Virus record (IMG/VR): IMGVR_UViG_3300030202_003452
Span: 43,261 to 107,260 of that record
Source of the DNA: a virus
Direction: 5' to 3' (one strand)
Length of the DNA stretch: 64,000 bases
In this document: in pieces, positions 9,722 to 49,012 of the stretch
Layout of the letters: each line of letters starts with the position of its first letter
How positions within the stretch are numbered: position 1 is the stretch's first letter
The notes under the pieces: generated by a model
The model's input: the letters and a program-made list of their open reading frames with translations, nothing else
Told to the model about the DNA's origin: nothing
Databases searched by the model: none
Made by a program: the position numbers and the translations under genes

Positions 9722-9728
9722 GTTAATT

Positions 9729-9737
9729 CTATTTATT
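9729..9737 (+). promoter_or_regulatory. Putative late promoter box CTATTTATT
   Basis: A copy of the recurrent CTATTTA(N)T box, ending 23 bases before the ATG at 9761 in a 39-base gap. The same box precedes at least nine other virion genes here. Assignment as a late-promoter -10 element is inference from recurrence and position. Confidence 0.45.
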
Positions 9738-9760
9738 AAAGATGTAATGGGAGTTATTAA

Positions 9761-10711: not shown

Positions 10712-10720
10712 GGATAGAAA

Positions 10721-11818: not shown

Positions 11819-11824
11819 AATGTT

Positions 11825-13012: not shown

Positions 13013-13030
13013 TGTTAAATGTGTTATAAT
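13002..13030 (+). promoter_or_regulatory. Consensus sigma70 promoter for the RuvC-like gene
   Basis: TTGACA at 13002-13007, a 17-base spacer, and TATAAT at 13025-13030: a perfect match to the host housekeeping consensus. Expected transcription start is about 13036-13038, essentially on the ATG at 13036. The -35 box lies within the end of the previous coding sequence. This suggests early or middle transcription by host RNA polymerase, unlike the CTATTTA boxes of the virion genes. Confidence 0.8.
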
Positions 13031-13035
13031 ATATT

Positions 13036-13539: not shown

Positions 13540-13549
13540 CCAAAAATAC

Positions 13550-13578
13550 TTGACAAACTTGCCCCACCATGATACGTT
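13550..13578 (+). promoter_or_regulatory. Sigma70-like promoter for primase
   Basis: TTGACA at 13550-13555, a 17-base spacer and TACGTT at 13573-13578 as a weaker -10. It fits within the 56-base gap before the primase gene and predicts a leader of roughly ten bases holding the GAGAGG RBS. Confidence 0.5.
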
Positions 13579-13595
13579 TTTTATGAGAGGCAAAA

Positions 13596-14534: not shown

Positions 14535-14558
14535 CAAAAATTATAAACATGTTACATT
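14531..14558 (+). promoter_or_regulatory. Sigma70-like promoter for tRNA-Leu and downstream genes
   Basis: TTGACA at 14531-14536, a 16-base spacer and TACATT at 14553-14558, ending eight bases before the tRNA 5' end. It overlaps the primase stop codon. It could drive tRNA, thioredoxin and possibly the SbcD-SbcC gene. Confidence 0.6.
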
Positions 14559-14566
14559 ACAAGTAT

Positions 14567-14652
14567 GGGATTGTGGTGGAATCGGTAGACACACCAGACT
14601 TAAAATCTGTTGCTCATTGAGCGTGGGGGTTCAAGTCCCCCCAATCCCACCA
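14567..14652 (+). tRNA. tRNA-Leu (anticodon TAA), CCA encoded
   Basis: Acceptor GGGATTG (14567-14573) pairs with CAATCCC (14642-14648), discriminator A, encoded CCA 14650-14652. The D-arm core GGTGGAATCGGTAGACAC is that of class II Leu tRNAs, the anticodon loop is CTTAAAA giving anticodon TAA, a long variable arm (TGCTCATTGAGCG) is present, and the T arm is GGGGG-TTCAAGT-CCCCC. All canonical features are intact. It would read UUA/UUG leucine codons, which are common in this AT-rich genome. Confidence 0.97.
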
Positions 14653-14674
14653 ATATCAACAAAGGAAAAAAACA

Positions 14675-14995
14675 ATGCAAGTTATAGACAATAGAGAGAA
14701 ATTTGAAGAGTTAACTTCCGCAGGGAACGTGATAGTACAGTTTTCAGCAGGATGGTGTCAACCGTGCAAGGTTCTGAGTAGGACAATGGCTAGTGTAACA
14801 CCTGAACACTCAGACGTTTATTTTTACAAAGTGGACATTGACTCAATGGACAGATCACTAATTAATCATTACAATGTTAGATCTGTACCTCGACTACTTA
14901 TGTTTGTCAACGGTGAAGATGTCGCGGAACTTATTGGTGCCAAAGGTACAGATGAGATCAATGGTTTCATTAATTCAAATAAGGAGAACTCATGA
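14675..14995 (+). CDS. Thioredoxin
   Basis: 106 residues, normal thioredoxin length. The redox motif is W27-C-Q-P-C31 (canonical WCGPC with Gln for Gly) and the cis-proline segment SVPRLLMF follows. It would be a cytoplasmic dithiol reductant; in phages thioredoxins can support ribonucleotide reductase or act as polymerase cofactors, but neither partner is in this window. Good RBS (AAAGGAAA) and ATGA coupling to the next gene. Probably cotranscribed with the tRNA from the promoter at 14531. Confidence 0.9.
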   Translation: MQVIDNREKFEELTSAGNVIVQFSAGWCQPCKVLSRTMASVTPEHSDVYFYKVDIDSMDRSLINHYNVRSVPRLLMFVNGEDVAELIGAKGTDEINGFINSNKENS

Positions 14996-15207
14996 GTAAG
15001 GATATTTTTATGCCGCTTTATCGCGATGAAGACGAGACTTGGCTGGAGGCCGCAGAACGTCACGCAGATAACTACGGACTAAAGGACGACGTTCAGGCTA
15101 TCTACTATGAGTTTATAAGAGAAGGCTATGATGATGTCATGGCAGCAGTAGAGGCACTAGAACAACTAAAAATACCTCTAGATGGCTTAGAGGAAGAGTC
15201 CGCTTAA
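14992..15207 (+). CDS. Small acidic protein of unknown function
   Basis: 71 residues, start overlapping the thioredoxin stop (ATGA) with GGAG eight bases upstream. Strongly acidic, predicted all-helical (ETWLEAAERHADNYGL, then IREGYDDVMAAVEALEQL), no Cys. I do not recognise a family. Its last 21 bases are shared with the 3' end of the opposing minus-strand ORF. Confidence 0.7.
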   Translation: MSKDIFMPLYRDEDETWLEAAERHADNYGLKDDVQAIYYEFIREGYDDVMAAVEALEQLKIPLDGLEEESA

Positions 15208-15354
15208 TAAAGCGGCAAGAAAAATAATTCCAAAAACTGGTGCTGTCACGTAGTCATCCGTAAGATCAAATTGTCGCCGATCCCTAACAGAGTTAATAAG
15301 ATCAGTTGAAAAAATTGCAATTATCATGACTAAAAAAACAGCCAACCAGTTCAT
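15187..15354 (-). CDS. Probable two-helix membrane protein on the minus strand
   Basis: A 55-residue ORF filling most of the only sizeable gap in this region. It reads as two hydrophobic helices (WLAVFLVMIIAIFSTDLI at residues 3-20 and APVFGIIFLAALLSGLFL at 38-55) around a charged loop (RDRRQFDLTDD), the layout of small holin, antiholin or other phage membrane proteins. On its own strand it is preceded by GGGGG eight bases before the ATG and by a CTATTTAG box 21 bases upstream, the same box that precedes virion genes. It is the only convincing minus-strand gene seen. Its 3' end overlaps the 14992 gene tail-to-tail by 21 bases. Function unknown. Confidence 0.5.
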   Translation of the reverse strand: MNWLAVFLVMIIAIFSTDLINSVRDRRQFDLTDDYVTAPVFGIIFLAALLSGLFL

Positions 15355-15374
15355 TCATGAGACCCCCGGTATTT

Positions 15375-15382
15375 CTAAATAG
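15375..15382 (-). promoter_or_regulatory. Putative late promoter box (CTATTTAG) on minus strand
   Basis: Read on the minus strand, CTATTTAG is followed by AAAT and, after 21 bases from CTATTTA, by the ATG at 15354. Spacing and sequence match the boxes upstream of + strand virion genes. Role inferred. Confidence 0.4.
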
Positions 15383-15417
15383 TCCCGAGGATATCGAATC
15401 TATACGCAGGAGGAACA

Positions 15418-18400
15418 ATGACTAGATTTGCTCACATTAGCGATACACATATTAGAAATGTAAAGTATCAAGAAGAATATAAAATAGTCTTCAAACAGAT
15501 TTACGAATCTCTTGAAAGAGAACAACCTGACTACATTATCCATACGGGAGATATTGCTCACACAAAAACGCAATTGTCCCCAGAGTATTTTGAGTTGTGT
15601 TCTGACTTTCTTAAAAACTTGGCAGACATTGCACCAACCTATGTCATTCTCGGTAACCACGATGGGAATCTTAAGAATGATAATAGACAGGATGCAATTA
15701 CGCCGATCATTGAGGCACTAGGCCACCCTAATCTTCATCTACTGAAAAACTCAGGAGAAACAAGGTTGGGAAAAAAGATCACCCTTAATGTTCTTTCGGT
15801 CTTTGATCGAGACAACTGGAAGGCTCCAAGCAGCAAGTCTAGAATTAACATTGCACTTTATCATGGGGCAATCCGTGGTTGCAAAATTTCTGATGGGTTT
15901 ACTTTAGAAAGCGGCGAGGACTCAATCAATATCTTTGATGAGTTTGACTATGCTATGCTTGGAGATATCCACAGGCGACAAAAACTTGATGAAGAAGGTC
16001 GCATCTGGTATGCCGGATCTACAGTACAACAAAACTTTGGCGAATCTTTGCTTAAAGGTTATTTGCTGTGGGACATCCGAGGCAAAAAGAAGTTTAAAGT
16101 TGAACCACGACTGTTTATGTCACCGCGACCATTTGTCACTGTGGAAGTAAACCAGGACGGCACTTTACCGAAAACTGATGTGCCAAGAAACGCAAGGCTC
16201 AGATTGGTCTCACATTACAATCTACCGCTCGCAAAGTTGCGTAGGGCCTGTGACTATGCCCGAACCAAATGGAGTGCCTATACGGTCAATTTCGTCAACA
16301 AGGCAGGCTATTCTGGACTGGGACTAGATGGAAATAACCCAGACAGTAAAATTATCAACATGCGAGACCCAAATACACAAGAAAAATATATCAAAGAGTT
16401 CTTGGCAGACAAAGAGATTACTGATGATGTGTTAGACAGGATTATTGAACTTAATTCAAACTATAATAAGCAAATTGAAACTAGTGAAGATGTATCTAGG
16501 AACATTATCTGGAAACTTCGTAAAATGAAATGGAACAACTTGTTTAATTATGGTGAAAAGAACGAACTTGATTTTACAAAACTTAACGGACTTGTTGGTA
16601 TCTTTGGTAAAAACTATTCTGGTAAATCAAGCATTATTGATTCTGTTCTTTTTGGCATGTTCAATACGACATCAAAGACCGAGCGTAAAAATGTGCATTT
16701 GATTAATCAGAACAAAGAGAAGGCCAGGGTACAACTGGATATTGGAGTTGGTAACGATACGTTCAAGATCACTCGTTCACTTGAGGCATACGAGAAAAAG
16801 AGTAAAGGCACCATAACGAAAGAAGCAAAAACAGACCTAGACTTTACCAAGTATGCACTTGGAACAATGGCAGAGAGCAAGAACGGCACAACTCGTAACG
16901 AGACAGACCTGAACATCAGAAGAGCCTTTGGTACCTTTGAGGATTTCATGATCACCTCTATGTCCTCCCAACTTGATTCTTTAGGTTTCATTAACGAAGG
17001 GTCCACTAAACGTAAAGAGATTCTCGCAAAATTTCTTGATTTACAAATGTTCGAAGAGAAACATAAACTGGCCAAGAAAGACTCCGCAGAACTTAAGGGT
17101 ATCATAAAACACCTCAGTACCATTGATTGGAATAAGAAACTGGTCCATGGCCAAGAGGCACTAGAAGAAATTTTAGAGGAGATAGAACAGCAGTCTGGTT
17201 TGTGCGAAAAACTCAAAGCAAGGATAAAAGAACTGGAAGAAGAATCTGACCTTATTGGAGACCAATTGCGTTCTGTAGAGGATGGTTGGATTGATATAAC
17301 TCAGGTTGAATCTAACTTAGAAGAAAAAGAGAGAGAGAAGTCTAATCTCGTTGGTAAAATTAAATTAATGAACGTATCCCGATTAGAATTTGAAAACAAA
17401 CTCAGATCTGCCATTAATAACCTAAACCCAGAAGAGTTATCTAGATTGGATGGCTTGGTCCAAAAACACAAAGAGTTGCTATACGAACATGAACAAATGT
17501 CACTTGATCTCAAGCCAAAAGAAACAAAGTTGCGTAATCTAAACAAAAAGATTGCTATGCTTCATGACCATGAGTATGATCCAGATTGTAGGTTCTGTTG
17601 TGATAACAAGTTTGTTAAGGATGCTAATAAAGCAAAGGGAGAAGCCCCAGTTATTGAACAGCAAATCAAAACACTACAGGACGAGATTGTATTCTTAGAG
17701 TCTGAAATGGAGGCGCTTGATTTTGATACCATAACAGAAAAACGCGATCAACTTGCAAGTTTTGAGGAACAAAAGACAGACTTTGAAGCCAAGATTCAAA
17801 AGATCACAACTCAAATTCAAATGTGGAATGCAACAAAGCAACTTGTAAAATCGGAGATTAGAGAATTAAGAAAGAAGAAAGATCACTACTATGAAAATCA
17901 AGAGGCCTTTGACAACATTGACTCTCTAAAAAGAGACGTTAGATCTGTCAGAGCAATGATTGAAAACAAGACTCGTGACCTCGCTCGATGCGAAAAGAAG
18001 ACAATGGGCCTTGTATCCGAAGAGGGCGCAACCCGACAACAAATAAAGGAGGCAGAAGCAAAACTAGCAGAGATTCAAACTTACGAGAGAGACTACATTG
18101 CATACGATCTTTTCATTCAAGCAATGCATCCCAACGGGGTTTCTTACAGGGTTATCAGATCAATGCTATCAGTCATCAACTCAGAGATTGCAAAGATTCT
18201 AAACAGTATTGTTGACTTTGAAGTGTTCTTTGATAACGTTGGCAGCAAACTTGAAATCTACATTAAACATCCAAAATACGATCCTCGACCTTTATCGATG
18301 GGTTCCGGAGCAGAAAAGACAATTGCTTCGATGGCTATTCGCTTAGGTCTAATCTCGATAACCAATCTTCCAAAATCGGAATTGTTTATCCTTGACGAAC

Positions 18401-18573
18401 CGGCAACGGCATTGGATGCAGAACACATGGACGGTTTTATCAGACTTCTTCAAATGATTAAGTCACAATTTAAGACGGTTCTGTTGATTTCGCACCTCGA
18501 AACCCTCAAAGACGTTGTTGATATGACAATTGACATACAGAAGAAAGACGGATACGCACACGTCCAAATCTAA
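15418..18573 (+). CDS. Single-chain Mre11-Rad50 (SbcD-SbcC) nuclease-ATPase, T4 gp47-gp46 fusion
   Basis: 1051 residues with RBS AGGAGGA. Residues 1 to about 370 are the Mre11/SbcD phosphoesterase: D9-x-H11, GD at 44-45, GNHD at 79-82, LYHG and LGDIH. Residues from about 378 are the Rad50/SbcC ATPase: Walker A GKNYSGKS near 397-404, coiled coil, zinc hook C724-R-F-C727, second coil, signature SMGSG near 960, Walker B FILDEPATALD near 990 and H-loop LLISH. No stop or frame change separates the halves. T4 encodes these as two genes (gp47, gp46) that process DNA ends for recombination-dependent replication and host DNA breakdown; here one polypeptide would ensure 1:1 assembly. A terminator follows. 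Confidence 0.93.
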   Translation: MTRFAHISDTHIRNVKYQEEYKIVFKQIYESLEREQPDYIIHTGDIAHTKTQLSPEYFELCSDFLKNLADIAPTYVILGNHDGNLKNDNRQDAITPIIEALGHPNLHLLKNSGETRLGKKITLNVLSVFDRDNWKAPSSKSRINIALYHGAIRGCKISDGFTLESGEDSINIFDEFDYAMLGDIHRRQKLDEEGRIWYAGSTVQQNFGESLLKGYLLWDIRGKKKFKVEPRLFMSPRPFVTVEVNQDGTLPKTDVPRNARLRLVSHYNLPLAKLRRACDYARTKWSAYTVNFVNKAGYSGLGLDGNNPDSKIINMRDPNTQEKYIKEFLADKEITDDVLDRIIELNSNYNKQIETSEDVSRNIIWKLRKMKWNNLFNYGEKNELDFTKLNGLVGIFGKNYSGKSSIIDSVLFGMFNTTSKTERKNVHLINQNKEKARVQLDIGVGNDTFKITRSLEAYEKKSKGTITKEAKTDLDFTKYALGTMAESKNGTTRNETDLNIRRAFGTFEDFMITSMSSQLDSLGFINEGSTKRKEILAKFLDLQMFEEKHKLAKKDSAELKGIIKHLSTIDWNKKLVHGQEALEEILEEIEQQSGLCEKLKARIKELEEESDLIGDQLRSVEDGWIDITQVESNLEEKEREKSNLVGKIKLMNVSRLEFENKLRSAINNLNPEELSRLDGLVQKHKELLYEHEQMSLDLKPKETKLRNLNKKIAMLHDHEYDPDCRFCCDNKFVKDANKAKGEAPVIEQQIKTLQDEIVFLESEMEALDFDTITEKRDQLASFEEQKTDFEAKIQKITTQIQMWNATKQLVKSEIRELRKKKDHYYENQEAFDNIDSLKRDVRSVRAMIENKTRDLARCEKKTMGLVSEEGATRQQIKEAEAKLAEIQTYERDYIAYDLFIQAMHPNGVSYRVIRSMLSVINSEIAKILNSIVDFEVFFDNVGSKLEIYIKHPKYDPRPLSMGSGAEKTIASMAIRLGLISITNLPKSELFILDEPATALDAEHMDGFIRLLQMIKSQFKTVLLISHLETLKDVVDMTIDIQKKDGYAHVQI

Positions 18574-18581
18574 ACTTGAAG

Positions 18582-18613
18582 CCTATTTAGAGTAAAATCT
18601 AGATAGGTTTTTT
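18582..18613 (+). terminator. Intrinsic terminator after SbcD-SbcC
   Basis: Stem CCTATTTAGA (18582-18591) with TCTAGATAGG (18598-18607), one G-U pair, loop GTAAAA, then six T. The 5' arm contains a CTATTTAG box identical to the putative late promoter element, so early termination and late initiation could overlap here. Confidence 0.75.
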
Positions 18614-18630
18614 GTTTATGGAGACTAAAA

Positions 18631-19002
18631 ATGAAACTTACAGAAGAAAGATTAGTAAAGATGATCTTAGAGGAACTTGATGCGATGGGAGAGGCGTATA
18701 GGGGTTCCGCCGGACAGCCTTTAAGTCGTGCTCAAAGAAGGGCGGCTAGGATGAAAAGACGAACTGGGGGACCTGGAACAATGGAACCACGAAAAAAAGG
18801 AACAGAAGAAGAAGAGGCCAAGCGTACTGCCAAGCGTGCGCTTGATCTCGCTGCGAGACCAACATTGATGATGATTCGGAAAGATATAGAAAATGAAAAA
18901 AAGACACAATATGATGTAGAACGGGACGTTTATAACTATATCAAGAAATTGTCTAGGGATGACCAAGACGTTCTGGATCGCCTAACAATTAAGGAGGACT
19001 AA
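18631..19002 (+). CDS. Small highly charged protein of unknown function
   Basis: 123 residues, RBS GGAGA. It opens with MKLTEERLVKMILEEL, an amphipathic helix of a type seen at the start of several other proteins here (21390, and more loosely 28313). A strongly basic stretch follows (RAQRRAARMKRR, residues 36-47), then a charged helical remainder. No recognised domain. It is the first gene after the terminator and leads a run of small, closely spaced genes. The basic segment could bind nucleic acid, but that is speculation. Confidence 0.7.
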   Translation: MKLTEERLVKMILEELDAMGEAYRGSAGQPLSRAQRRAARMKRRTGGPGTMEPRKKGTEEEEAKRTAKRALDLAARPTLMMIRKDIENEKKTQYDVERDVYNYIKKLSRDDQDVLDRLTIKED

Positions 19003-19005
19003 AAA

Positions 19006-19284
19006 ATGGATTTAAAAGAAGAAGTAATAGACAGAGTAGAGGCTGTCGTTGAAAACATCGATTGCGAAAGTGTTGCTGCTGAGTTGCACCTTGATGACCC
19101 AGAGTTGGGCGTTTTGGATGCTGTTCAAGAAAAACTAATCTCAAGAAAACTTCTTGTGTTTGGTGTTGCAACCGCTCTTATGATCTGGTCAAACCTTGAC
19201 CCGGATACTTGGGGACTTATTGCAATGATGTACATCGGTGGTCAATCTGCCATTGACCTTGCTAAGACTTGGAGACACGGATAA
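19006..19284 (+). CDS. Small membrane protein, holin candidate
   Basis: 92 residues with RBS AAGGAGG. An acidic, helical N-terminal half is followed by two hydrophobic segments (LLVFGVATALMIW near 49-61 and WGLIAMMYIGGQSAI near 69-83) joined by a short DPDT turn, then a basic C-terminus (KTWRHG). The size and two-helix hairpin fit a class II/III-like holin, and the next two genes look spanin-like, but no endolysin is nearby. It couples to the next gene by a TAATG overlap. Holin function is an inference. Confidence 0.6.
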   Translation: MDLKEEVIDRVEAVVENIDCESVAAELHLDDPELGVLDAVQEKLISRKLLVFGVATALMIWSNLDPDTWGLIAMMYIGGQSAIDLAKTWRHG

Positions 19285-19667
19285 TGACCTGGTGGCCAGC
19301 ATTTAAACTGTGGTGTAAACACAATTGGAAAGTGCTGGTCATCGGTGCATCCATCTTAATTGCATTTCTTGCTGGAAACAGAAGAACAGCAGCAGCCAAA
19401 GCGCAACTTAAGTCAACAAGAGAGTTGTACAAGAAAGAACGCGAGGCTCTAAAAAATCTAGATGCCGAAGAAGATGATCTTAAGCAAAAAGCACAAGAGA
19501 AATACAAGAAGGCAATAGCAGTTGCTGACAGGCAGATGCACGAGTCTCGTGATGAGTTAGAGAAAAGAAGAGCAGAGAGGGTTAAGGAACTATTGGTAGA
19601 GAACAGTCATGACCCGAAAGTTATCGACGACATACTCTACAAAGAATTTGGGATTAAAAATAAATGA
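19284..19667 (+). CDS. Membrane-anchored coiled-coil protein, i-spanin-like
   Basis: 127 residues from the ATG overlapping the previous stop; an upstream in-frame TTG at 19269 is less likely because it lies inside the previous gene without an RBS. Architecture: short N-terminus, one transmembrane helix (VLVIGASILIAFLAG, about 17-31), then a long charged coiled coil (about 36-100). This N-in, coiled-coil-out layout is that of Rz-type inner-membrane spanins, which link the inner and outer membranes during lysis of Gram-negative hosts. ATGA coupling to the next gene. Function assigned by architecture only. Confidence 0.55.
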   Translation: MTWWPAFKLWCKHNWKVLVIGASILIAFLAGNRRTAAAKAQLKSTRELYKKEREALKNLDAEEDDLKQKAQEKYKKAIAVADRQMHESRDELEKRRAERVKELLVENSHDPKVIDDILYKEFGIKNK

Positions 19668-20062
19668 TTTTTTTGTTTTTTTCACTTGCAATTGCTGAGC
19701 CTTTGAGTTATACTATAAAGAAGGGTGATCCTGCCCCTATTGATGGTAGACTATTCAACGACGAAGCAGTTGTTAATTTAATTGCCAGTAACGAAAAGTT
19801 ACAAGATCAGTGCGAAATCTCTCTACAATACCAAGGTAAAACTCTGGCCGCTGAACATGCGCTAGAAATGGAATACGTAAAGGCAGAACTTGAGATTGAA
19901 AAGAAGAAAAGCGAGACTTTAATTGGATTACGAGACGAGCAAATAGAACTACTACAGAAGCAACAAAGCCCATACCGCACAATTGGTTGGTTTCTAGCAG
20001 GCTTTGGATTAGGAACAGGAGCATCGATTGCGACTTATTACGCAGCGAAGAACATACAATGA
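19664..20062 (+). CDS. Exported protein with C-terminal membrane helix, lysis-associated candidate
   Basis: 132 residues. A short hydrophobic N-terminus (MIFLFFSLAIAEPL) looks like a signal peptide; it is followed by KKGDPAPIDGRLFNDEAV, a GDxAPxDG segment I associate with Rz-like phage proteins, then a charged helical region and a C-terminal hydrophobic helix (TIGWFLAGFGLGTGASIA, about 106-123). It is coupled to the i-spanin-like gene upstream and to the 20059 gene downstream by ATGA overlaps. A role in envelope disruption is plausible but unproven. Confidence 0.55.
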   Translation: MIFLFFSLAIAEPLSYTIKKGDPAPIDGRLFNDEAVVNLIASNEKLQDQCEISLQYQGKTLAAEHALEMEYVKAELEIEKKKSETLIGLRDEQIELLQKQQSPYRTIGWFLAGFGLGTGASIATYYAAKNIQ

Positions 20063-20490
20063 TTAAAATTAGAATTATCAAAGCAATGAAGCAACTTATG
20101 GGATTTGCATGTCCCGAAGCAACTCAAGATTTGGAGTTAAACACAAAGAATCGTGATGCTTCAATCAAAGCCGAACACATTCAGTACGGCCCTCTTAATG
20201 TAGATGAGCCGGGTGATTACTGGAAGGACATCGCTGAGTACTGGAACACCACTGAGAAGGCAGCAAAGAAGTCTTTATGTGGTAACTGTGTTGCGTTTGA
20301 CATCAGCCCTAGAATGGATGACTGCATGCCCGGCCAGGTATCTGATGAAGATGGCCGTCTAGGGTATTGCTGGATGCATCACTTTAAGTGCCATAGCGCA
20401 CGTTCGTGCAGAACATGGGCAAAGGGCGGCCCAATTACGGAGGACACTATTTCTTACGATTGGCAAGAGAGAGGTGAGAGTGCCCAATAA
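20059..20490 (+). CDS. Cysteine-rich putative metal-binding protein
   Basis: 143 residues. The ATG at 20059 forms an ATGA overlap with the previous stop; an upstream in-frame start near 19987 would add residues from inside the previous gene and is rejected. Cysteines cluster as CGNC, DDC, GYC and KCHSARSC with WMHH between (about residues 74-118), suggesting two metal ions or an iron-sulfur site. A conserved-looking YGPLNVDEPGDYW block precedes them. I recall similar proteins in marine myoviruses but know no function. Confidence 0.7.
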   Translation: MIKIRIIKAMKQLMGFACPEATQDLELNTKNRDASIKAEHIQYGPLNVDEPGDYWKDIAEYWNTTEKAAKKSLCGNCVAFDISPRMDDCMPGQVSDEDGRLGYCWMHHFKCHSARSCRTWAKGGPITEDTISYDWQERGESAQ

Positions 20491-20854
20491 AGATCCAAAC
20501 TATGCTGTTAAGGTAGAGCAGGCAATTGCAAAAAAATACGGCAAAGATACCGTTGTAAACCCAAAATCTCTATGGGATAACGAAAAAGAACAACAGTACG
20601 TTGCTGGACTCAAAGAAACTTACGTGAGAGAGACGTTAGAAGACTATGACAAAGTTGAGGTCGAAGGCGTTTTTATTCCGAGAAAACTAGTTAAAGAAGA
20701 GTCTAGTCGCTCTTGTCCAGTTTGTAATACTTATTCGTTTAAATCAAATGATGACGTGTACATGACCAAATTTGAATGTTGCGAAGAATGTTACATACAA
20801 TGGGTCGAGGGCAGAGAAGAAAGATGGAAAACGGGATGGAGACCAAATAAATGA
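20480..20854 (+). CDS. Small zinc-ribbon protein
   Basis: 124 residues from GTG at 20480, five bases after a GAGAGAGG ribosome site; a GTG at 20474 lies in that site and is less likely. The C-terminal half has two Cys pairs (CPVC near 80-83 and CCEEC about 20 residues later), a zinc-ribbon arrangement, and the protein ends in a Trp/Arg-rich tail (EERWKTGWRPNK). It overlaps both neighbours by a few bases. Possibly nucleic-acid binding; no family recognised. Confidence 0.65.
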   Translation: MPNKDPNYAVKVEQAIAKKYGKDTVVNPKSLWDNEKEQQYVAGLKETYVRETLEDYDKVEVEGVFIPRKLVKEESSRSCPVCNTYSFKSNDDVYMTKFECCEECYIQWVEGREERWKTGWRPNK

Positions 20855-21393
20855 GTTCAACATACGAAATTGTTCAAGGGCTTGCTCAAGCAGCCGCAAA
20901 TGCCTATGACGGCGCACACGATGAGAGATACTCTCTTGACGGTCAAATCAGAAAAGTTGGCCTTAACCGAGAGCAAGGACATCCAATTATTGATAAAAGA
21001 GTTAACGATGGTTTTTCTGTTAAGTTCTACGGAAACTCAATGATCATTAACTATCAAAGTGATGTACGATTGCAGGAAGTTAAAGATCCTAAGTACGATC
21101 AAGAAATCGTTAGAATGCTTAATGAGATCAAGAAGTTTCTTCAAAGAGAGTACAAAACACTTACAGGAAACTCTGTTCGCTTGTCTGCTAAGGGAGAACC
21201 TCAAATCCTCGTACAAAGCACCTCTCGCGTTCGAACTTTCGTTCAGGCATACCAACACTACACAATCTCAGGGATGAAGGCAGATCCAATCCTTCAGCCT
21301 TCTGAAGACACTGAGCGAGATGTCACAAGAAAATTTTTAGAACAATTCTCTGATAAGAGACCTTCAAATGATACAAGAGGTAAAGAACAATGA
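20851..21393 (+). CDS. Protein of unknown function upstream of terminase
   Basis: 180 residues, ATGA overlap with both neighbours. The N-terminus is Ala-rich and helical (GLAQAAANAYDGAHDE), followed by a mixed alpha/beta core including MIINYQSDV and a basic helix (NEIKKFLQREYKTL). No signal, membrane helix or catalytic motif. Its position two genes before the large terminase suggests a head or packaging link, but this is context only. Confidence 0.65.
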   Translation: MSSTYEIVQGLAQAAANAYDGAHDERYSLDGQIRKVGLNREQGHPIIDKRVNDGFSVKFYGNSMIINYQSDVRLQEVKDPKYDQEIVRMLNEIKKFLQREYKTLTGNSVRLSAKGEPQILVQSTSRVRTFVQAYQHYTISGMKADPILQPSEDTERDVTRKFLEQFSDKRPSNDTRGKEQ

Positions 21394-21869
21394 AACTTAA
21401 GATTACAAAAGAAAGACTTGATCAAATCGTCAAAGAAGAGTATGAGAGAATTAAAGAAGAAGAACATGCTGATCCTGTTGGTGCTGGTATCGAAGACATT
21501 AGCGCTGATGACGTTCTGGGCAATCAGCCTGGTCTTGGTTTTGATATAGGCTCTCAACAGGCCTTTGCAGAATTATATGCACGTTACAGCGGTGGTAAAG
21601 ACAAGGCCCAAATAGCGACAGACTTTGAAAAGATTGATGCACTGGGTGATGAAGGCCTATCTAAAATGTTTAAAGCATTTATTCTCCGAAACACACTTCT
21701 TTTCCCTGATGAGACCCCAGGTTCGGTTGATTTGTTGCGTAATGATCCGGAAGCAGTTGATGCAGCGCTCGCCGCTATTCCCGATGAACTAGAGGAATTA
21801 GAAGAAGACATTTCGGATTCACTTGTTAAAGAAATACAAAACCTCCTGAAGCAGCAGGGAAATCTATAA
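21390..21869 (+). CDS. Acidic helical protein directly upstream of terminase (small-terminase position)
   Basis: 159 residues, ATGA overlap upstream and nine bases from the terminase start. It opens with the charged helix MKLKITKERLDQIVKEEY, has a Gly/Asp-rich linker, and ends with acidic helices (DELEELEEDISDSLVKE). T4 small terminase gp16 is of similar length (164) and is the neighbour of gp17, so it is a positional candidate, but I see no DNA-binding motif and the strong acidity argues against simple DNA recognition. Function not established. Confidence 0.6.
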   Translation: MKLKITKERLDQIVKEEYERIKEEEHADPVGAGIEDISADDVLGNQPGLGFDIGSQQAFAELYARYSGGKDKAQIATDFEKIDALGDEGLSKMFKAFILRNTLLFPDETPGSVDLLRNDPEAVDAALAAIPDELEELEEDISDSLVKEIQNLLKQQGNL

Positions 21870-26208: not shown

Positions 26209-26731
26209 AATTAACATTGAAGAGATAGAAAAAGAGTTTAACATAACATTTGAGATGAACATTAGGTCTGCTCTTAATGGCGATCTCATGATTATGGAAC
26301 ATAAAGACATTGATATTATCATTAAACAAAAAGACAACAAAGTAATTGCTTTCCCAAAAGACATTATGTCAGATCTTGTTTATGGTGCGGAATCTAGAAT
26401 GCTAGAGTTTCTTAGGAGACAAGGTGTTATTGAGTATGACTCAATCCAAGGCGGTAATGTTTATGGATCAATGGAAGGTACAATAATGGAGTCAGAGAAA
26501 CTTGACTCAATAAAGGCCACCCTCTTATCATTATCTGAGTGGTTTAAGACAGAGCAGTCTTACATTAGCGGTACAACTGCTTACGATGCTATGCAAGACG
26601 ATGCATTGCTTGAACCTGATAAAGAAGAGTCAACAGAACTTGGTGAAGTTCCTGCCGAGGCTGAGAAGGGGTCAATCACGCAAAACAACTTGTTTGCACC
26701 TTACTTGTACGGAAGATACAGTTATGAGTAA
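26198..26731 (+). CDS. Prohead-core-position protein with acidic C-terminus
   Basis: 177 residues starting MAIKINIEEIEKEFN. The N-terminal 100 residues are a compact alpha/beta region; the C-terminus is acidic (DDALLEPDKEESTELGE) and ends aromatic (APYLYGRYSYE). It overlaps the following ParB-like gene by eight bases. Location between portal and prohead protease suggests a core or head protein, by analogy with T4 gene order only. Confidence 0.65.
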   Translation: MAIKINIEEIEKEFNITFEMNIRSALNGDLMIMEHKDIDIIIKQKDNKVIAFPKDIMSDLVYGAESRMLEFLRRQGVIEYDSIQGGNVYGSMEGTIMESEKLDSIKATLLSLSEWFKTEQSYISGTTAYDAMQDDALLEPDKEESTELGEVPAEAEKGSITQNNLFAPYLYGRYSYE

Positions 26732-27272
26732 ACAACGCATCATACTTGAGAATTGGCGAAGATTCTTAAATGAAAGTCGTCAAGATGTAATAGCATCAGA
26801 GGATGCAGCCGTTAAAGAGTTTATGGGTAAACTAAAAATAGAACCTGGGTATCCCACAGAGAAAGACAATCAACATTGGACTGCGACATACAAAGGCTTT
26901 GCTATTTGTAATGACAAAGAGATTTCAATTACAAGAATGAAAGGCAACGCAGGAGAGCATGAACTTGGGGACTTTGAAAGAGGCTCTATTAAAGGAAGGG
27001 GTAGAAAAAGTTCTGATGAATGGAAAAAACTCAAAGCCGATGTTCTTGAAAAGGGAATAGAAAACCCCATACTTATTGTTGCCAAATGGGAAGGCGATAA
27101 TGTTATTGCTAGAGTTTCTGAGGGCAACCATCGCATACGACTAGGGTGTCAAACCGGGAAGAAAATCCCAGTAGAGATAAGATTTTTTGGTAAAAGCGAA
27201 GAACACATCGATGAAGTTTATTTTGATTTCGACCTGCGAAGATTGATACAATACGGATTAGAGCGAGGCTAA
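26724..27272 (+). CDS. ParB/Srx-like domain protein with T4-like head-targeting N-terminus
   Basis: 182 residues from the ATG at 26724 (GGAAG RBS); the longer upstream reading starts inside the previous gene and is rejected. The C-terminal half has the ParB/sulfiredoxin pattern: KGIENPILIV, then SEGNHRIRLG, then KIPVEIRFFG (about 110-160), a fold used for DNA or nucleotide binding and sometimes nuclease activity. The N-terminus NWRRFLNE|S resembles the T4 capsid-targeting sequence TYQEFIAE|A and fits the prohead protease consensus (L/I)xE|(A/S/G). The protease is two genes downstream. It may be a packaged internal protein (inference). Confidence 0.75.
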   Translation: MSKQRIILENWRRFLNESRQDVIASEDAAVKEFMGKLKIEPGYPTEKDNQHWTATYKGFAICNDKEISITRMKGNAGEHELGDFERGSIKGRGRKSSDEWKKLKADVLEKGIENPILIVAKWEGDNVIARVSEGNHRIRLGCQTGKKIPVEIRFFGKSEEHIDEVYFDFDLRRLIQYGLERG

Positions 27273-27652: not shown

Positions 27653-27684
27653 GAGTGGGTGGCGCCCACTCTATTTTTTATTTT
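27653..27684 (+). terminator. Intrinsic terminator before prohead protease gene
   Basis: Perfect seven-base-pair stem GAGTGGG (27653-27659) with CCCACTC (27665-27671), loop TGGCG, followed by TATTTTTTATTTT. It ends about 11 bases before the protease start, so it may also limit read-through into the protease gene. Confidence 0.75.
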
Positions 27685-27694
27685 GAGGGAAGGT

Positions 27695-28312
27695 ATGGGA
27701 AAAGAACTTTTACAAGAATTTTATGAACTTTGCAAAGATGGTGTCTGTCTTGATCTCTTAACCGAGGCCGAGAAGAGAGAAGCCATGAACGAAGGAACAA
27801 TGTTTCTTTCTGGTCGCATCCAGACTGCTGATAAGCAGAACGGAAATGGTCGTGTTTACCCTTACGAGGTTCTTAAGAGAGAGATGGACAACTACGCAAG
27901 GATTGTTGCTGACAATAGAGCATGCGGTGAACTTGACCATCCGGACGATTCAGTTGTTAATCTTAAAAACGTATCTCACATCATAACCAAGGTTTGGTGG
28001 GAAGGCAAGGATGTTATGGGCAAGATCAAAGTCCTTGACACCCCATCAGGCAGAATCCTGAAAGACCTTGTGAACGCTGGGGTTAAACTTGGTATCTCTT
28101 CTCGTGGACTTGGATCTGTCCGAGAAAGTATGGGAAAGACAGTTGTAGAGGCTGACTTTCAATTGATTTGTTTTGACATTGTGTCCGAACCTTCCACACC
28201 AGATGCCTATGTTTATCCTGGTAGAGGGATGTCTGAGGTTGTTTCATCTCGCCTTAAAGAGAGAAAAGAGAACAACATTGATGGGCTATTTAGAAGAATT
28301 CTAGGGGATTAA
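27695..28312 (+). CDS. Prohead core protease (T4 gp21-like)
   Basis: 205 residues from the ATG at 27695 (GAGGGAAGG upstream); an earlier in-frame GTG at 27659 lies within the terminator hairpin and is rejected. The T4 gp21 landmarks are present: NRxYP-like GRVYPYEVL, GELDHP with catalytic His82, WWEGKDVMGK, and GISSRGLGS with the catalytic Ser near 135-136, then STPDAYV. T4 gp21 is 212 residues. It self-activates in the prohead, cleaves capsid, core and internal proteins at (L/I)xE, and destroys the scaffold. Matching sites are visible in the major capsid, scaffold, ParB-like and 888-residue proteins. Confidence 0.94.
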   Translation: MGKELLQEFYELCKDGVCLDLLTEAEKREAMNEGTMFLSGRIQTADKQNGNGRVYPYEVLKREMDNYARIVADNRACGELDHPDDSVVNLKNVSHIITKVWWEGKDVMGKIKVLDTPSGRILKDLVNAGVKLGISSRGLGSVRESMGKTVVEADFQLICFDIVSEPSTPDAYVYPGRGMSEVVSSRLKERKENNIDGLFRRILGD

Positions 28313-40721: not shown

Positions 40722-41981
40722 ATGTCTAATATGCTAGAACAGGCTATTGTCGATGCTGCTGCATTGAGAGAGGCCGCCCTCAAAAACGCCGAGCAGGCTA
40801 TCATTGAAAAATATGCTCCACAAATCAAAGAGGCTGTAGAGTCCATGCTTGAGGGAGAACCAGTAGCGGAATCCCATTGCGGGTCTAACGGGTCTAAAAG
40901 AAAGCACGAAGAAAAAATCGTTGAGATTATCGAAGATCTCAATGAAGAAGGACAGTATCTCGTTCAAGCCGAAGGAGAGAAGCCTTATCTTGTGAATGAG
41001 ATGGATCTTCAAGAATTAAATGAAGAAGACATTCTACAAGAAGAAGAAATGGGTATGGATGCGGGAGCAGCAGGTGGCGAGATTGAAGCGCCTTTCGCTG
41101 GAAACCCTTCTATGTCCGCTGATCAATCCGTTGAGTTCTCACTTGATATCGAAGACTTAGGTGATGGGATGGTCAGCATTGATCTTGATGCTCTTGAAAA
41201 AGCAATGAATCTTATGGATGATGCCCCAGTAGAAGATGCACTTCCTCGTGATGATGTTGCTGCTGAACTTGGCGCTGATGATCTGGGGAGTCTTGATAGC
41301 CTGTTGTCTGACATTGATGACACTGAAGGCACAGAAGAAACAGAAGACGATATGGATCTCCAATTACAAGAATTGCTTGATCTTCTTGGAGAGGATGAAG
41401 TACTAGAAGAAAAAATCACTGTTGATATGGCAGAAGATAAAGATGGAACGTTTCAAACAAATGAAGCCACTTTAGAATATGAACAAGCAAAACAAGAAGC
41501 ACATGATGCTCACAGTGATGAAGACAAATTAGAAGAAGAGGAAGATGACTCTGAGTTAAAAGAAACCGGTAAAGTCAACGATCTTCAAGAAACAGTTTCC
41601 GCCCTTGTCTCTCAAAATGAGAAACTTGAAGGCGTGATTTACAAACTTCAAGAACAACTTGAAGCAACTTTGCTATCAAACGCAAAGTTAATTTATAAAA
41701 ACCGCACTTTAAGCGATGCCTCCTTGAATGAGCGACAAAAAGAAAAAATTGTCGAAGCCATTGCCGGAGCGGAGTCTCCAAAAGAAGCAAAGCAACTTCA
41801 TGAGACACTCAAAGCAACAGTGGGATCATCCTCTAAAAAGCATGGTCCACAATCACTAAGCGAGTCAGTCAACCGAAGATCGAATCTTTCGGCTATGCTT
41901 AATTCGAGACAAAACTTAAGCGAGAACAAAAGCGCTGATCCATTTATGGAAAAGATGCAAAAACTCGCAGGCATTAAATAA
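40722..41981 (+). CDS. Prohead core scaffolding protein (T4 gp22-like)
   Basis: 419 residues, RBS CAGGAG. Highly acidic and helical: N-terminal helix AALREAALKNAEQAIIEKY, a long Asp/Glu/Leu-rich middle with repeated LDxLxxD units, a coiled coil (about 285-325) and a basic end (FMEKMQKLAGIK). Its place immediately before the major capsid gene and its composition match T4 gp22, the internal scaffold digested by the prohead protease. Candidate cleavage sites of the (L/I)xE|A type include LRE|A near residue 17. Longer than T4 gp22 (269). Confidence 0.82.
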   Translation: MSNMLEQAIVDAAALREAALKNAEQAIIEKYAPQIKEAVESMLEGEPVAESHCGSNGSKRKHEEKIVEIIEDLNEEGQYLVQAEGEKPYLVNEMDLQELNEEDILQEEEMGMDAGAAGGEIEAPFAGNPSMSADQSVEFSLDIEDLGDGMVSIDLDALEKAMNLMDDAPVEDALPRDDVAAELGADDLGSLDSLLSDIDDTEGTEETEDDMDLQLQELLDLLGEDEVLEEKITVDMAEDKDGTFQTNEATLEYEQAKQEAHDAHSDEDKLEEEEDDSELKETGKVNDLQETVSALVSQNEKLEGVIYKLQEQLEATLLSNAKLIYKNRTLSDASLNERQKEKIVEAIAGAESPKEAKQLHETLKATVGSSSKKHGPQSLSESVNRRSNLSAMLNSRQNLSENKSADPFMEKMQKLAGIK

Positions 41982-42004: not shown

Positions 42005-43876
42005 ATGTCTATTATTGAAAAATTGACCGAAGGCATTGTAAACCGTGACATGAAGCAGGAAGGCGCCGCTCTTCTTTCTAAGTGGGAATCTACTGGTTTA
42101 CTTGAAGGCCTTCAAAACGAGCATGACAAAAACAACATGGCTCGTCTCTTGGAAAACCAAGCAAAAGAACTTCTTCGTGAGGCTTCTGGTATGGGTGCCG
42201 GTCTGGCAAATGTTGATGGCTTTGCTGCTGTTGCTTTCCCAATCGTTCGTCGTGTATTCGCCGGACTTATTGCTAACGATCTTGTAAGCGTTCAGCCGAT
42301 GTCATTGCCATCTGGTCTGATCTTCTTCCTTGACTTTGTGTATTCTGCTGATATTGGATCAACAACTCAGACTCAACGTCTTGGTAACCAAGATGAAAAA
42401 TCACTCTATGGTACCGACAAGGTTGGTGCTGGAATCATTGATGGCGTAAGTATCACTGATAGTCTTGGTGGCGATCAGTCTGGTCCTCGTGGAATGCCAG
42501 GTTATGCTTATGCTTCAGTAGAAAGTGAAGCAAATGGAACCGTTGACTTCCAAAACAATGCTCAAGGTGCTTTGGCCTCTGTTTTTACATTGAACGGTGC
42601 AGTTCCTGATGCTCAGAAAAAACTAATTGATTATGATCCAGACCTCTTGTCTATTACTAGCAATGCATCTTGTATTGTTATGGATATTGCTGAGAGTAAG
42701 TGTACTAATCCTGATTTTGAGAACATGGGTGCATTCAACTTGCCTGATGTAATTGATGCAACTGTTGTTGGTTCTGCTAACTCTTTGGCTGCTGTATTAA
42801 ACAACTTCGCCACAATTTCAATTGCTACTGGTGCTTCTGAACTTCGATCCATCCGTCGCCTAACTAAGCGTAGAACTGCTACTGAATCATCACTAAGTGT
42901 TGCTTCTGTAAGACTTGTATTGGTTCTTGATACAACTGCTGGTGGTACATCTGCAACTCAAACTCTTACTACTCAACAGGCTGCTGGTGCCGCTGGTATC
43001 CTTGCTGCTGCTAAGTTTAAGTACCCTGCTGCTGATACCGCTACTGATGGTGCAGGAACTGGTGTTATTGATACTTACACAATGCTTCTTGAGAACACTG
43101 AGAACATCCCTGAGATCGACATCAAGGTAGACAGCACTGCAATCACAGCGCAAACCAAGAAGTTGAAGGCCAAGTGGACCCCAGAATTGGGACAAGACTT
43201 GAATGCTTACCACAACTTGGATGCTGAGGTTGAATTGACTTCTATCCTTTCTGAGCAAATTGCTCTTGAAATTGATCGTGAGATCCTTGCTGACCTTATT
43301 CGTGGCGCAACTGCTGCTACTTACTACTGGTCTCGCTCTCCAGGTCTCTTTGTTGATCGTACCACTGGTGCTGAGATTGGTGCCAACAAAGCGGCTCCTG
43401 ACTTCACTGGAACTGTTTCTGAATGGTACGAGACTCTCATTGAAACCATCAATGATGTGTCTGCTGCAATCCACAGAAAGACCCTTCGTGGTGGTGCTAA
43501 CTTCGTAGTTGTTTCTCCTGAAGTAGCAAACATTCTTGAATTCACTGCTGGATTCCGTGCGAATGTTACTGCTGATGCTGACAAAGGCGACATTGGTGCT
43601 GTTAACGTTGGTTCTTTGAGCCGTAAGTTTGACGTAATTGTTGACCCTTACTTCCCAAGACAGATTGTTCTTGTTGGTCGTAGAGGTTCTTCTTTCCTTG
43701 AAAGTGGTTATGTCTATGCACCTTACGTGCCTCTCCAGACAACCCCAACCATCTTTGGGCCAGAGGACTTCGTACCTAGAAAGGGTGTGATGACTCGTTA
43801 TGCCAAGAAGATGGTTCGTCCAGATATGTACGGTCTTGTTGTTGTACGTGGACTAAATGGTGAAGAATACGCCTAA
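42005..43876 (+). CDS. Major capsid protein (T4 gp23-like)
   Basis: 623 residues (T4 gp23 is 521), RBS AAGGAG. Gp23-type landmarks: FPIVRRVFAGLIANDLVSVQP near 77-97, then IKVDSTAITAQTKKLKAKW and LDAEVELTSILSEQI, and TRYAKKMV at the end. The N-terminal 59 residues are a charged helical leader ending LLRE|ASG, equivalent to the T4 cleavage after E65 (FLTE|A). Extra sequence lies in the middle (about 140-340), Ser/Thr/Ala rich, perhaps an enlarged insertion domain. Forms the hexameric shell. A strong terminator follows, as expected of a highly transcribed gene. Confidence 0.94.
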   Translation: MSIIEKLTEGIVNRDMKQEGAALLSKWESTGLLEGLQNEHDKNNMARLLENQAKELLREASGMGAGLANVDGFAAVAFPIVRRVFAGLIANDLVSVQPMSLPSGLIFFLDFVYSADIGSTTQTQRLGNQDEKSLYGTDKVGAGIIDGVSITDSLGGDQSGPRGMPGYAYASVESEANGTVDFQNNAQGALASVFTLNGAVPDAQKKLIDYDPDLLSITSNASCIVMDIAESKCTNPDFENMGAFNLPDVIDATVVGSANSLAAVLNNFATISIATGASELRSIRRLTKRRTATESSLSVASVRLVLVLDTTAGGTSATQTLTTQQAAGAAGILAAAKFKYPAADTATDGAGTGVIDTYTMLLENTENIPEIDIKVDSTAITAQTKKLKAKWTPELGQDLNAYHNLDAEVELTSILSEQIALEIDREILADLIRGATAATYYWSRSPGLFVDRTTGAEIGANKAAPDFTGTVSEWYETLIETINDVSAAIHRKTLRGGANFVVVSPEVANILEFTAGFRANVTADADKGDIGAVNVGSLSRKFDVIVDPYFPRQIVLVGRRGSSFLESGYVYAPYVPLQTTPTIFGPEDFVPRKGVMTRYAKKMVRPDMYGLVVVRGLNGEEYA

Positions 43877-46345: not shown

Positions 46346-49012
46346 ATGAAGTTTAATGATACTGCTTGGAGAAAGTTTCTCCTAGAATCAAAAGAACAGG
46401 TTACTGAGGCCACAGAAGAAGAGATTGAGTATCTCGGAGACCTTCTTGAGATGCCTCCGTCTGCTTTGCCGTTTGATGATTTCTTCAATGGCAAGTATCG
46501 CATGGTCCAAAACTTTAGTGCTACAGAATCCACCGGTATTCTTGCCGACTTGGAGAAGTGGTTCGGTAGAGCCGGTTGGACTATCTATCTTGACGAATCA
46601 GGTAAAAAACCTGTTCTTAAGGCAACTAAAGTTGTCGAGAAGGAATACAAGGATAAAGAAGGTAACAGAAGACAGGTCTCAAAGACAATTGATCTAAAGT
46701 TATCAAAAATCGGCTCTCGCATAATTTCCTTTATTAACAACTGGGAAACCTGGAAAGAAGGAGTCGAAGGTGTCTGGGACCTTGCTATGGAATACACCGA
46801 CAAACTCGGAGAACTTCCAGTAGACGAAGATGGAGAAAGACCGGGTTTTGAGGCAGTCGCGGGAGAATATATTCCAAGATTACAAAAGGCGACAAACCGC
46901 TCTAAAAAACTTATTGCTTCATTTAAGGAATTGTTTGGAAATGGAAACTATGATAATTGGGATAGTGATGCAACGGAAGCCTATCGCCATTTGAAACTCG
47001 GAGGTGATGCAAAAGGTTATGGAAATTATTTTGAAACAGTCCTCGCACCACCGGCTAAGAAAATTGCTGATTTTCTTTTGGACGGAAGTAGTTTAGATGA
47101 CCTAACCAGAAACATTGACAATTACAAGTTGCAGAACTACATTATTTATTCCAGACACCCAATCGATGTCTATCGTATGTCTGACTTTCGTGGTTTAGAC
47201 TCTTGTCACTCATTACCTTCTCGTAAAGGAACATTGGGATTTGACGAATACAACGTCTGTGCTTTGGCTGAGGCTCACGGTAACGGTCTTATTTCTTATG
47301 TTGTGACCGCCGAGAGCATAAGAGAATTTATCGGAGCAGAAGAAGGACAAGAAATAACCCCAGAAATGATTAGAGAGAAACTTGACCTACACGAACTACC
47401 AGAAGCGGGAGACGGAGAAATCTTCGCAGACGAAGAAAGGGGCGTTGAAGGTATGGTTCCTGTGTCAAGAGTCAGAATTAAGCATGTGTCATACGATAGC
47501 AACGGTGATGATGAGGACCCAATCAGACTTCTTGTTCCCCAAGGAAACATTTATGGACAAAAAGTCCCTGGTCTTATAGATCACCTTTACAAAACAACAG
47601 TAGAAGCACAAAAAGAAAAGATTGAGGCCATTGCCGAGAAGGAACTTACAACCTCCGATAATGTTAGCATGTATGCCTTTACTCGTTATGGTGGTTCATA
47701 TCAAGACGGCGGCTATCGTGTTAAAGATGCTTTGCCAAGAATGTTTAACATTGCATTTCCTGACGTTGAGATTAATTTTATCGGTTCAATAAACTATGAC
47801 AACGACATGGAGAGGGAATTAGCCGGTGAGACTGGGTTTGTGAACGAAGCGGCAGTTGAAGAACTTATCGAACAGGCAGTTGAAAATCTCGGTGTTTCAT
47901 CCAACATCGATGTTAATTATGAAGTTGAACGATGGGATGAAACTTTTAGCATCAGCATTAGTGCTACTGTTGAATTTCGTTTTGAATTTCCAAGAGAAAC
48001 CGGCATGACTTACGCTGAAGCATCATCTGTTAATGATCTAATCGATAGCAAACTTGAAAACTTTGGTGAATTGCTGGGTCCGCAAGAAAGTCTAGTTGAT
48101 AATGTTACAACAACATACATCGAAGACCCAACATTTTCAGGCTACAAAGTATTGGTAGACATCAACCCCGAGTACTTGGTAATGATGTCTGGGGAAGAAT
48201 ATTGGCAGTATGAAGAGATAGAGTATCAACTTGAGCGAGTTTTTGGTGGTGATGGTTCTAACTATGGAATTGGTCTTGGATTTAGCACTCTTGCAACACG
48301 AGGTGGTGCAATGCAACAGGTGGTTTATAGGGCACTTCAAGATGATGACCTTATGCCTGGTGGTAACGAATACAAGTTTGGCCAAATAGCCGAGTACGAA
48401 TTCCAGGCCGGCTACAACACACCACTTGTTAATGGCGACTTTGAAATTGATTTTGAACTTTACCATGACGATGAAACCGGTGAACCGATGTCCTCTGGTT
48501 ACAGAATCAAGGGCATGACCGAGTATCAAAAAGACGAAGAGGAAGGTATCAAGATTGCTGCACTTCTTAATCTCGCCTATGTAAAGGGAGATGATTATGC
48601 AAAAGGTCTTGTCCGAGAAGTTGTGTATGATGCACTTGGAGGTGAGGTTGCACTGAGAATTCCAGTGGACAAAATGAGAATTTACTTTCAATTAGAAGAC
48701 GAAGACGAAGATCAGTTTGTATACCAACTTGGCTGGTATGCTAATGAGTATGACTTTGAGAAGAAATCAGACATCCAAGATCACCTTAATGCAATAGCAG
48801 AGGATGCCTACTTTGAGGGAATCAATGACCATCTTGTAGATTACATTGATAACAACATTCCACTTAAAAACTTAGGTATTGCAGATGTTATCGCCCAGGC
48901 CGACCAGGACCTCGGACAGACACCATCACAGGTTTCTTTTGAAGACCCAGAGCCTGAACAGGAAATAACCGAATCAAAGAGAAGAGTAAAACTAAGAATT
49001 TTAAGAGGATAA
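46346..49012 (+). CDS. 888-residue protein of unknown function with T4-like head-targeting N-terminus
   Basis: Starts MKFNDTAWRKFLLE|S, which resembles T4 capsid-targeting sequences (TYQEFIAE|A) and the start of the ParB-like protein (NWRRFLNE|S), and fits prohead protease cleavage. The body is soluble and acidic. A distinctive block near 275-320 reads YSRHPIDVYRMSDFRGLDSC, then HSLPSR and CALAEAHGNGLISYVV, with conserved-type Cys/His/Arg that could be catalytic; further on RVRIKHVSY and RLLVPQGNIYGQKVPG. Acidic alternating alpha/beta regions fill the rest, and the end is basic (SKRRVKLRILRG). I recall related uncharacterised proteins in marine phages. Between neck genes; possibly packaged and injected (inference). 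Confidence 0.7.
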   Translation: MKFNDTAWRKFLLESKEQVTEATEEEIEYLGDLLEMPPSALPFDDFFNGKYRMVQNFSATESTGILADLEKWFGRAGWTIYLDESGKKPVLKATKVVEKEYKDKEGNRRQVSKTIDLKLSKIGSRIISFINNWETWKEGVEGVWDLAMEYTDKLGELPVDEDGERPGFEAVAGEYIPRLQKATNRSKKLIASFKELFGNGNYDNWDSDATEAYRHLKLGGDAKGYGNYFETVLAPPAKKIADFLLDGSSLDDLTRNIDNYKLQNYIIYSRHPIDVYRMSDFRGLDSCHSLPSRKGTLGFDEYNVCALAEAHGNGLISYVVTAESIREFIGAEEGQEITPEMIREKLDLHELPEAGDGEIFADEERGVEGMVPVSRVRIKHVSYDSNGDDEDPIRLLVPQGNIYGQKVPGLIDHLYKTTVEAQKEKIEAIAEKELTTSDNVSMYAFTRYGGSYQDGGYRVKDALPRMFNIAFPDVEINFIGSINYDNDMERELAGETGFVNEAAVEELIEQAVENLGVSSNIDVNYEVERWDETFSISISATVEFRFEFPRETGMTYAEASSVNDLIDSKLENFGELLGPQESLVDNVTTTYIEDPTFSGYKVLVDINPEYLVMMSGEEYWQYEEIEYQLERVFGGDGSNYGIGLGFSTLATRGGAMQQVVYRALQDDDLMPGGNEYKFGQIAEYEFQAGYNTPLVNGDFEIDFELYHDDETGEPMSSGYRIKGMTEYQKDEEEGIKIAALLNLAYVKGDDYAKGLVREVVYDALGGEVALRIPVDKMRIYFQLEDEDEDQFVYQLGWYANEYDFEKKSDIQDHLNAIAEDAYFEGINDHLVDYIDNNIPLKNLGIADVIAQADQDLGQTPSQVSFEDPEPEQEITESKRRVKLRILRG

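Follow-up and report, generated by a model that had tools for sequence, protein, structure and literature searches.

Two proteins of an uncultured marine T4-like phage begin with a short peptide that, judged from sequence, appears to be a diverged and highly portable capsid-targeting signal of the T4 type. We consider it very likely that these N-terminal peptides are lineage-specific targeting sequences of the IPIII kind, and that their cargo is packaged into the head, cut by gp21, and probably injected. By analogy with T4 and with the cyanophage particles that others have analyzed, the tag would most likely load both proteins into the head for delivery to the next host cell. The window, meaning the whole stretch of 64,000 nucleotides that we analyzed, covers positions 43261 to 107260 of a 107-kb contig, which carries terminase, portal, S77 protease, gp23, sheath, and tube genes, based on ORF calls and Pfam and PHROG searches. 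The T4 signal itself was already known; new within the literature searched are its Trp form, its scale in one marine group, a mirrored copy at the C terminus, and its agreement with cyanophage virion proteomes.

Tagged proteins and head genes in the window

The window features given below with both end coordinates lie on the plus strand. The larger tagged protein, of 888 residues (46346..49012), starts at ATG 46346 behind an upstream AGGA. It begins with MKFNDTAWRKFLLE followed by S, a predicted targeting peptide (46346..46387) conserved in orthologues, with the cut predicted after E14 (E14/S15 at 46387/46388). The second, a 182-residue ParB-like protein (26724..27272), begins with MSKQRIILENWRRFLNE followed by S, and the predicted cut after E17 (peptide 26724..26774) places E17/S18 at 26774/26775. 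Its start is ATG 26724, which overlaps the stop of the previous gene, rather than 26586, where a program had begun a longer ORF. In one orthologue (L202) the tag is kept and reads MSKQRIILESWRKFLNE, with a deletion of 12 residues directly behind it. These N termini are as a preliminary description of this DNA gave them, and the two ORFs are the only ones among the approximately 96 called on the 107-kb contig with the motif [WFY]xxF[LIVM]xE near the start.

The same description placed a gp21-type protease beside one of the proteins, and this holds: a peptidase S77 (27659..28312; Pfam S77 E=2e-30; probable true start ATG 27695) lies one ORF from the ParB-like gene and has the segments GEL[ND]HP and G[VI]SSRG in common with T4 gp21. 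The major capsid protein (MCP) gp23 (42005..43876; Pfam/PHROG match) has a predicted propeptide ending LLENQAKELLRE (42005..42181), with a cut at E59/A60 based on conservation in related MCPs; the Glu and the Leu at P3 are kept in the MCPs of 16 related head regions. This predicted site would obey the P3-Leu, P1-Glu rule of the N-terminal tag. A candidate scaffold (40722..41981), assigned to the gp22 position solely because it precedes gp23 and matching no Pfam or PHROG family, would be the likely receptor, the partner that the tag binds within the prohead core.

Register with the T4 signal

In T4, packaging needs no more of IPIII than its first 10 residues; residues 4 and 7 are important for targeting, residues 8 and 10 for processing, and gp21 cuts after L/I-x-E with nothing fixed beyond the Glu (PMC9026906). 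The same review raises the idea that a range of proteins could be acquired by T4-like phages through sequences of this kind. In the T4 genome, IPII and IPIII do begin MKTYQEFIAE/A (the slash marking a cut; Y4, F7, I8, E10), as described earlier for T4 internal proteins, and the gp23 cut reads FGSFLTE/A. The W, F, L, and E of the window peptides stand in the register of the T4 targeting residues Y4 and F7 and the cleavage residues I8 and E10, they align in the same way with the T4 gp23 cleavage site, and their cleavage-motif ends are FLLE and FLNE. The aromatic and Phe anchors lie 7 and 4 residues before the predicted cut, with the peptide confined to the first 10 to 20 residues.

Like the signal of IPI, IPII, and IPIII, then, the window peptides are N-terminal segments of 10 to 17 residues with the aromatic-x-x-Phe-(Leu/Ile)-x-Glu register, an S77 protease is encoded in the genome, and one peptide precedes unrelated cargo. 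Unlike the T4 internal proteins, the form found here (the W-tag) has Trp as the first anchor instead of Tyr or Phe, often within an ENWR core, and the cut usually falls after residue 14 rather than 10. In T4 the strict motif occurs near the annotated start of only ipII, ipIII, and gp61.1. The last of these (19121, minus strand) is a small unstudied protein that starts MKTFKEFIKED, a full capsid-targeting motif.

N-terminal enrichment and conservation

For the window's contig and for four related near-complete genomes, we compared how often the motif occurs at starts and how often internally. Within 16 residues of the start, [WFY]xxF[LIVM]xE occurs 1.2 to 1.9 times per 1,000 residues, versus 0.03 to 0.14 internally, an enrichment of about 20- to 50-fold in the four related genomes. 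A DNA pattern for ENWRxFLxE[AS] gave 59 matches in IMG/VR, 58 of them N-terminal (5 to 14 codons after ATG), versus 2 matches for a codon-reversed control of equal degeneracy. A tblastn search with the short tag against cultured phages gave no match.

Fixing only MKLxxENWRxF recovered at least 124 distinct N termini in at least 65 cargo clusters that have nothing in common beyond the tag. Among the matches listed, the next residue is L, I, or V in 55 of the 65 clusters and position 14 is Glu in 52 of the 65, though neither was searched for; about a fifth of these clusters lack that Glu. The residue that follows the Glu in the 65 listed clusters varies (E in 18, S in 12, A in 12, D in 7, G in 4), so "Ala or Ser" is no general rule. 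Of the motif proposed earlier, the part aromatic-x-x-Phe-(Leu/Ile)-x-Glu stood, in the same register, and we dropped Ala or Ser at P1' as a general feature; it is present in both window proteins and often absent in relatives. In neighboring genes without ENWR, W..[FY] followed by [LIVM] at +4 and E at +6 occurs in 34 of 77 N termini versus 19 of 563 internal occurrences (p=7e-22), and these diverged tags conserve no positions other than W, F, L/I, and E.

Cargo and distribution

A wider count gave approximately 105 unrelated cargo clusters behind the tag in related phages, a number in one phage group that also sets the W-tag apart from the T4 internal proteins. Family searches assigned cargo to NUDIX, HAD, AAA_33/zeta-toxin, protein kinase, SAM lyase, and CTP_transf-like (NMNAT-like) families, and further cargo is 2H-phosphoesterase-like, DUF192, LysM, 5'-3' deoxyribonucleotidase, or polynucleotide kinase; most tagged cargo has no family assignment. 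At tagged loci, the 119 homologues of core T4 genes for replication and structure all lack the W-tag, which answers a concern of the preliminary description, that the motif might be as common on enzymes known to be nonvirion. Within the five genomes alone the same comparison (0 of 20 versus 25 of 961) is too small for significance. Four W-tagged genes lie within about 4.4 kb in each of two loci (L094 and L132), forming islands of tagged cargo, which also occur in L221 and L241.

Of the 14 tagged contigs that reach 119 kb or more, 13 encode gp21 (the S77 protease); shorter ones encode it in 6 of 25, but short contigs are uninformative for such counts. The MCPs of tagged contigs are 74 to 92% identical to that of the window over the matched part, and their propeptides end LL[RK]E/x, where x is mostly A or S. 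Since the tagged phages thus form one MCP clade, co-occurrence with gp21 is not independent evidence. A T4-style pattern, MKxFxxFLxEA, was found at ORF starts in 113 of 124 IMG/VR matches, in 26 cargo clusters, and its cargo includes a HAD-like protein similar to the most frequent cargo of the W-tag.

The ParB-like protein is known as such from its EGNHR motif (core EGNHRIRLG) and otherwise only from a weak match to Spo0J/ParB 6sdk (E=1.8). It gave no significant Pfam or PHROG match, no tblastn match among cultured phages, and an AF2 model too poor to use (pLDDT 37); profile searches of PDB sequences with the cargo proteins yielded nothing usable. Several different W-tagged proteins carry a ParB-like [DE]G[NHR]HR core, and the window's protein therefore belongs to a recurrent class. 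Released along with the DNA, this putative DNA- or nucleotide-binding protein and the 888-residue protein might both serve to protect or handle the incoming genome early in infection.

The 888-residue protein family

The 888-residue protein has an R-M-S-D..SCH and YxxCAxAEA core, and its family is confined here to the marine phage group. We found relatives in approximately 30 of the loci analyzed, with R-M-x-D...SCH, C-A-x-x-E-A, and other residues invariant. There was no match in Pfam or PHROG, none by tblastn in cultured phages, and a single weak match in 84,980 genomes. The sole family gene in that bacterial set lies on a 21-kb contig of a Red Sea MAG (PBOB01000020), which probably derives from a phage and was placed in a bacterial bin. 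A DNA pattern for RMSD..SCH gave 0 matches because its codon choice was too narrow. The AF2 model (pLDDT 58) was too weak to use, and Foldseek found no PDB match at E<=0.001.

The MKFNDTAWRKFLLE tag is kept in orthologues L001 to L003, and diverged versions of the W-tag occur in L020, L241, L140, and L150. In most family members the tag is replaced by another N terminus, MLNDEQILLKT..., and a mirrored signal is found at the C-terminal end, where [LIVT]xE precedes a terminal ..VxxW[KR]xFL, for example GLSE/NLVKTWKRFLNYG or TNE/SLVKTWKGFLNA. Three members carry this signal and the N-terminal tag together. The window protein ends in a basic tail, SKRRVKLRILRG (48974..49009), which follows EITE and is the counterpart of the WKxFL tail of the family; a second cut after E876 is predicted there. 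At both ends of the family a Glu thus stands between cargo and motif, which fits removal of a targeting peptide. Essentially no C-terminal tails of this mirrored type were found beyond the family, and T4 internal proteins differ in this respect as well.

Processing at both ends has a precedent in T4 Alt (PMC9026906), a packaged ADP-ribosyltransferase whose N- and C-terminal propeptides are removed by gp21, as predicted for the 888-residue protein. Unlike that protein, to which it has no sequence relation, Alt begins MELITE/L without aromatic anchors. The ejection proteins of phiKZ and SPN3US, which reside in the head, are comparable in that a gp21-like protease trims them after [AS]-x-E before they leave it, but, as reviews describe them, their propeptides are longer and have no common short N-terminal motif.

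Tagged proteins in cyanophage virions

The link between the signal and virion location comes from published data on cultured relatives. The sole annotated S-SM1 coding sequence with the strict N-terminal motif is the cytidylyltransferase GC190 (MKKFSAFLNE/A), which Sullivan et al. detected in purified virions (PMC3037559). Homologues approximately 41 to 43% identical overall keep this N terminus (MKSFSQFLTE/T in P-SSM2, MKSFLQFLKE/A in S-SCSM1), and the S-SCSM1 protein, an NMNAT, was likewise detected in virions (PMC9602691). In S-CREM2, 52 of 219 proteins were detected in virions (PMC10665884). Its four proteins with the strict motif within 18 residues of the start are all on that list (4 of 4; p=0.003): the SAM hydrolase (MKDFDSFLEE), the APH-like kinase (xKRFDAFLTE, from a GTG start codon), the cytidylyltransferase (MKNFSSFLTE), and gp136 (MQTFSMFFSE). 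The remaining nonstructural, nonlysis protein of the list is gp12 (L385, 7704-10313), with RFASFMAE/A at residues 19 to 25 and TFRDFLN at its end. Its annotation as Cas9 is that of its authors and has no Cas9 match in Pfam, so we used only the motif and not the label.

Cyanophage authors noted that CsCl preparations could carry contaminants, and the S-CREM2 authors did not decide between packaging and contamination for these enzymes (PMC10665884). A common signal on the S-CREM2 virion enzymes argues for packaging over contamination. These nonstructural virion enzymes (NMNAT/cytidylyltransferase, SAM hydrolase, and APH kinase) fit the signal with N termini of the form MK[KSND]FxxFL.E, and kinase, SAM lyase, and NMNAT-like cargo overlaps the W-tagged set, although the signal is a T4-like F4/F7 version unlike the W-tag. 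The available portions of the three virion papers do not point out the signal, nor do they report cleavage of the detected relatives. Homologues of the S-CREM2 kinase have degenerate or shorter N termini (MKRLGRLLAE, MKSLKIFE) or, in S-CRM01, an internal LESILSE. The strict motif would thus miss some packaged proteins, and the S-CRM01 virion kinase, without it at the homologous start, indicates that there are routes into the virion other than this motif. Together with its absence from the 119 core homologues, these virion proteomes support the packaged-effector interpretation that the preliminary description had offered for both window proteins.

Proposed route into the virion and alternatives

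We propose that the peptide forms an amphipathic helix, with W, F, and L/I on one face, that would bind the prohead core during assembly, so that the attached cargo protein becomes enclosed. Phage gp21 would then cut after the conserved Glu of [LI]-x-E, giving mature proteins predicted to start at S15 (888-residue protein) and S18 (ParB-like protein), and the 888-residue protein would probably also lose its C-terminal tail. The freed proteins would remain in the head with the DNA and probably be delivered into the host at infection. For the window's phage we infer packaging, cutting, and injection, as well as any action of the cargo in the cell, from its relatives and from T4.

The two proteins might instead be ordinary structural or assembly proteins of a head-neck operon, as their position among portal, protease, neck, and tail genes would allow, with the motif saying nothing about an effector route. 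We regard this as unlikely: the same tag precedes kinases and SAM lyase-like, NUDIX, and HAD proteins, no core structural homologue has the motif, and tagged proteins that differ in all else also have the ParB-like core. Less probable still is a docking helix for some other assembly (replisome, membrane, or tail) that is neither packaged nor cut and resembles T4 by convergence on a short amphipathic helix. The peptide would indeed be a short helix, P1' residues are often acidic (Glu or Asp), and usually cytoplasmic enzymes such as NUDIX and nucleotidase are among the cargo; but the four tested residues of the T4 targeting sequence are matched in exact register, motif-bearing S-CREM2 and S-SM1 enzymes are present in virions, and the C-terminal mirrors keep a cleavage Glu between motif and cargo that docking would not need.

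A functionless peptide encoded by a DNA-level element, either a recombination adapter or a translation-start signal for cargo swapping, would account for islands of four tagged genes in a row and for the tags that are identical in DNA. Among the matches listed, however, 59 of 65 tags on unrelated cargo have distinct 33-nt DNA, and in codons whose first two positions match, the third is the same in only 58%, which favors selection on the peptide. With diverged tags keeping only W, F, L/I, and E, and with C-terminal copies in existence, we hold this explanation to be very improbable. Chance likeness of two short N termini, conceivable for a short motif with only two cases in the contig, is negligible given the orthologue conservation, the matches in excess of the control, and the enrichment at starts. 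Capsid targeting is our preferred reading.

If it is true, lists of hypothetical proteins from uncultured T4-like phages would yield packaged, probably injected proteins readable from sequence alone, and the long-standing question of what freight T4-like phages carry besides DNA becomes directly testable. It would also explain why virion proteomes of cyanophages repeatedly contain NMNAT, kinase, and SAM hydrolase, and it would provide natural tags with which foreign proteins could be loaded into phage heads.

A second N terminus and other shared starts

A second type of portable N terminus, MK[IL]T[KE]xxLKxIIKEE, precedes unrelated small proteins at 18631, 21390, and 28313 of the window and at many other loci (among them L022, L143, and L153). 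Based on pattern counts, we assign to it the proteins at 18631..19002, beginning MKLTEERLVKMILE followed by E, and at 21390..21869, just upstream of the terminase and beginning MKLKITKERLDQIVKE followed by E. The pattern L...I.EE occurs in 62 clusters versus 2.5 expected, and its L8, I11, I12, and E14 stand in the same register as the W-tag. We give about an even chance to a broader proposal, in which a peptide swappable to either protein end is a general virion export signal of the marine uncultured T4-like group, serving a large, fast-changing set of injected enzymes (ParB-like, kinases, SAM lyase, NUDIX, HAD, and PNK/zeta-like), with MKITKxxLKxIIKEE as a further version in the same register.

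Another shared N terminus, M(E)NFDLKKFLVE/NKLT, occurs on four proteins of the nearest cultured relative, Flavobacterium phage immuto (NC_055915), at 1803, 103806, 117631, and 118632; two of the four are encoded immediately upstream of the terminase. In the window, two successive similar tail-tube-like genes (53423 and 53983) both start M[SA]FWKDNK. Upstream of the tail genes, approximately 17 glycosyltransferase, nucleotide-sugar, and epimerase-like genes lie in a run (L007/L008; contig 6053-21784).
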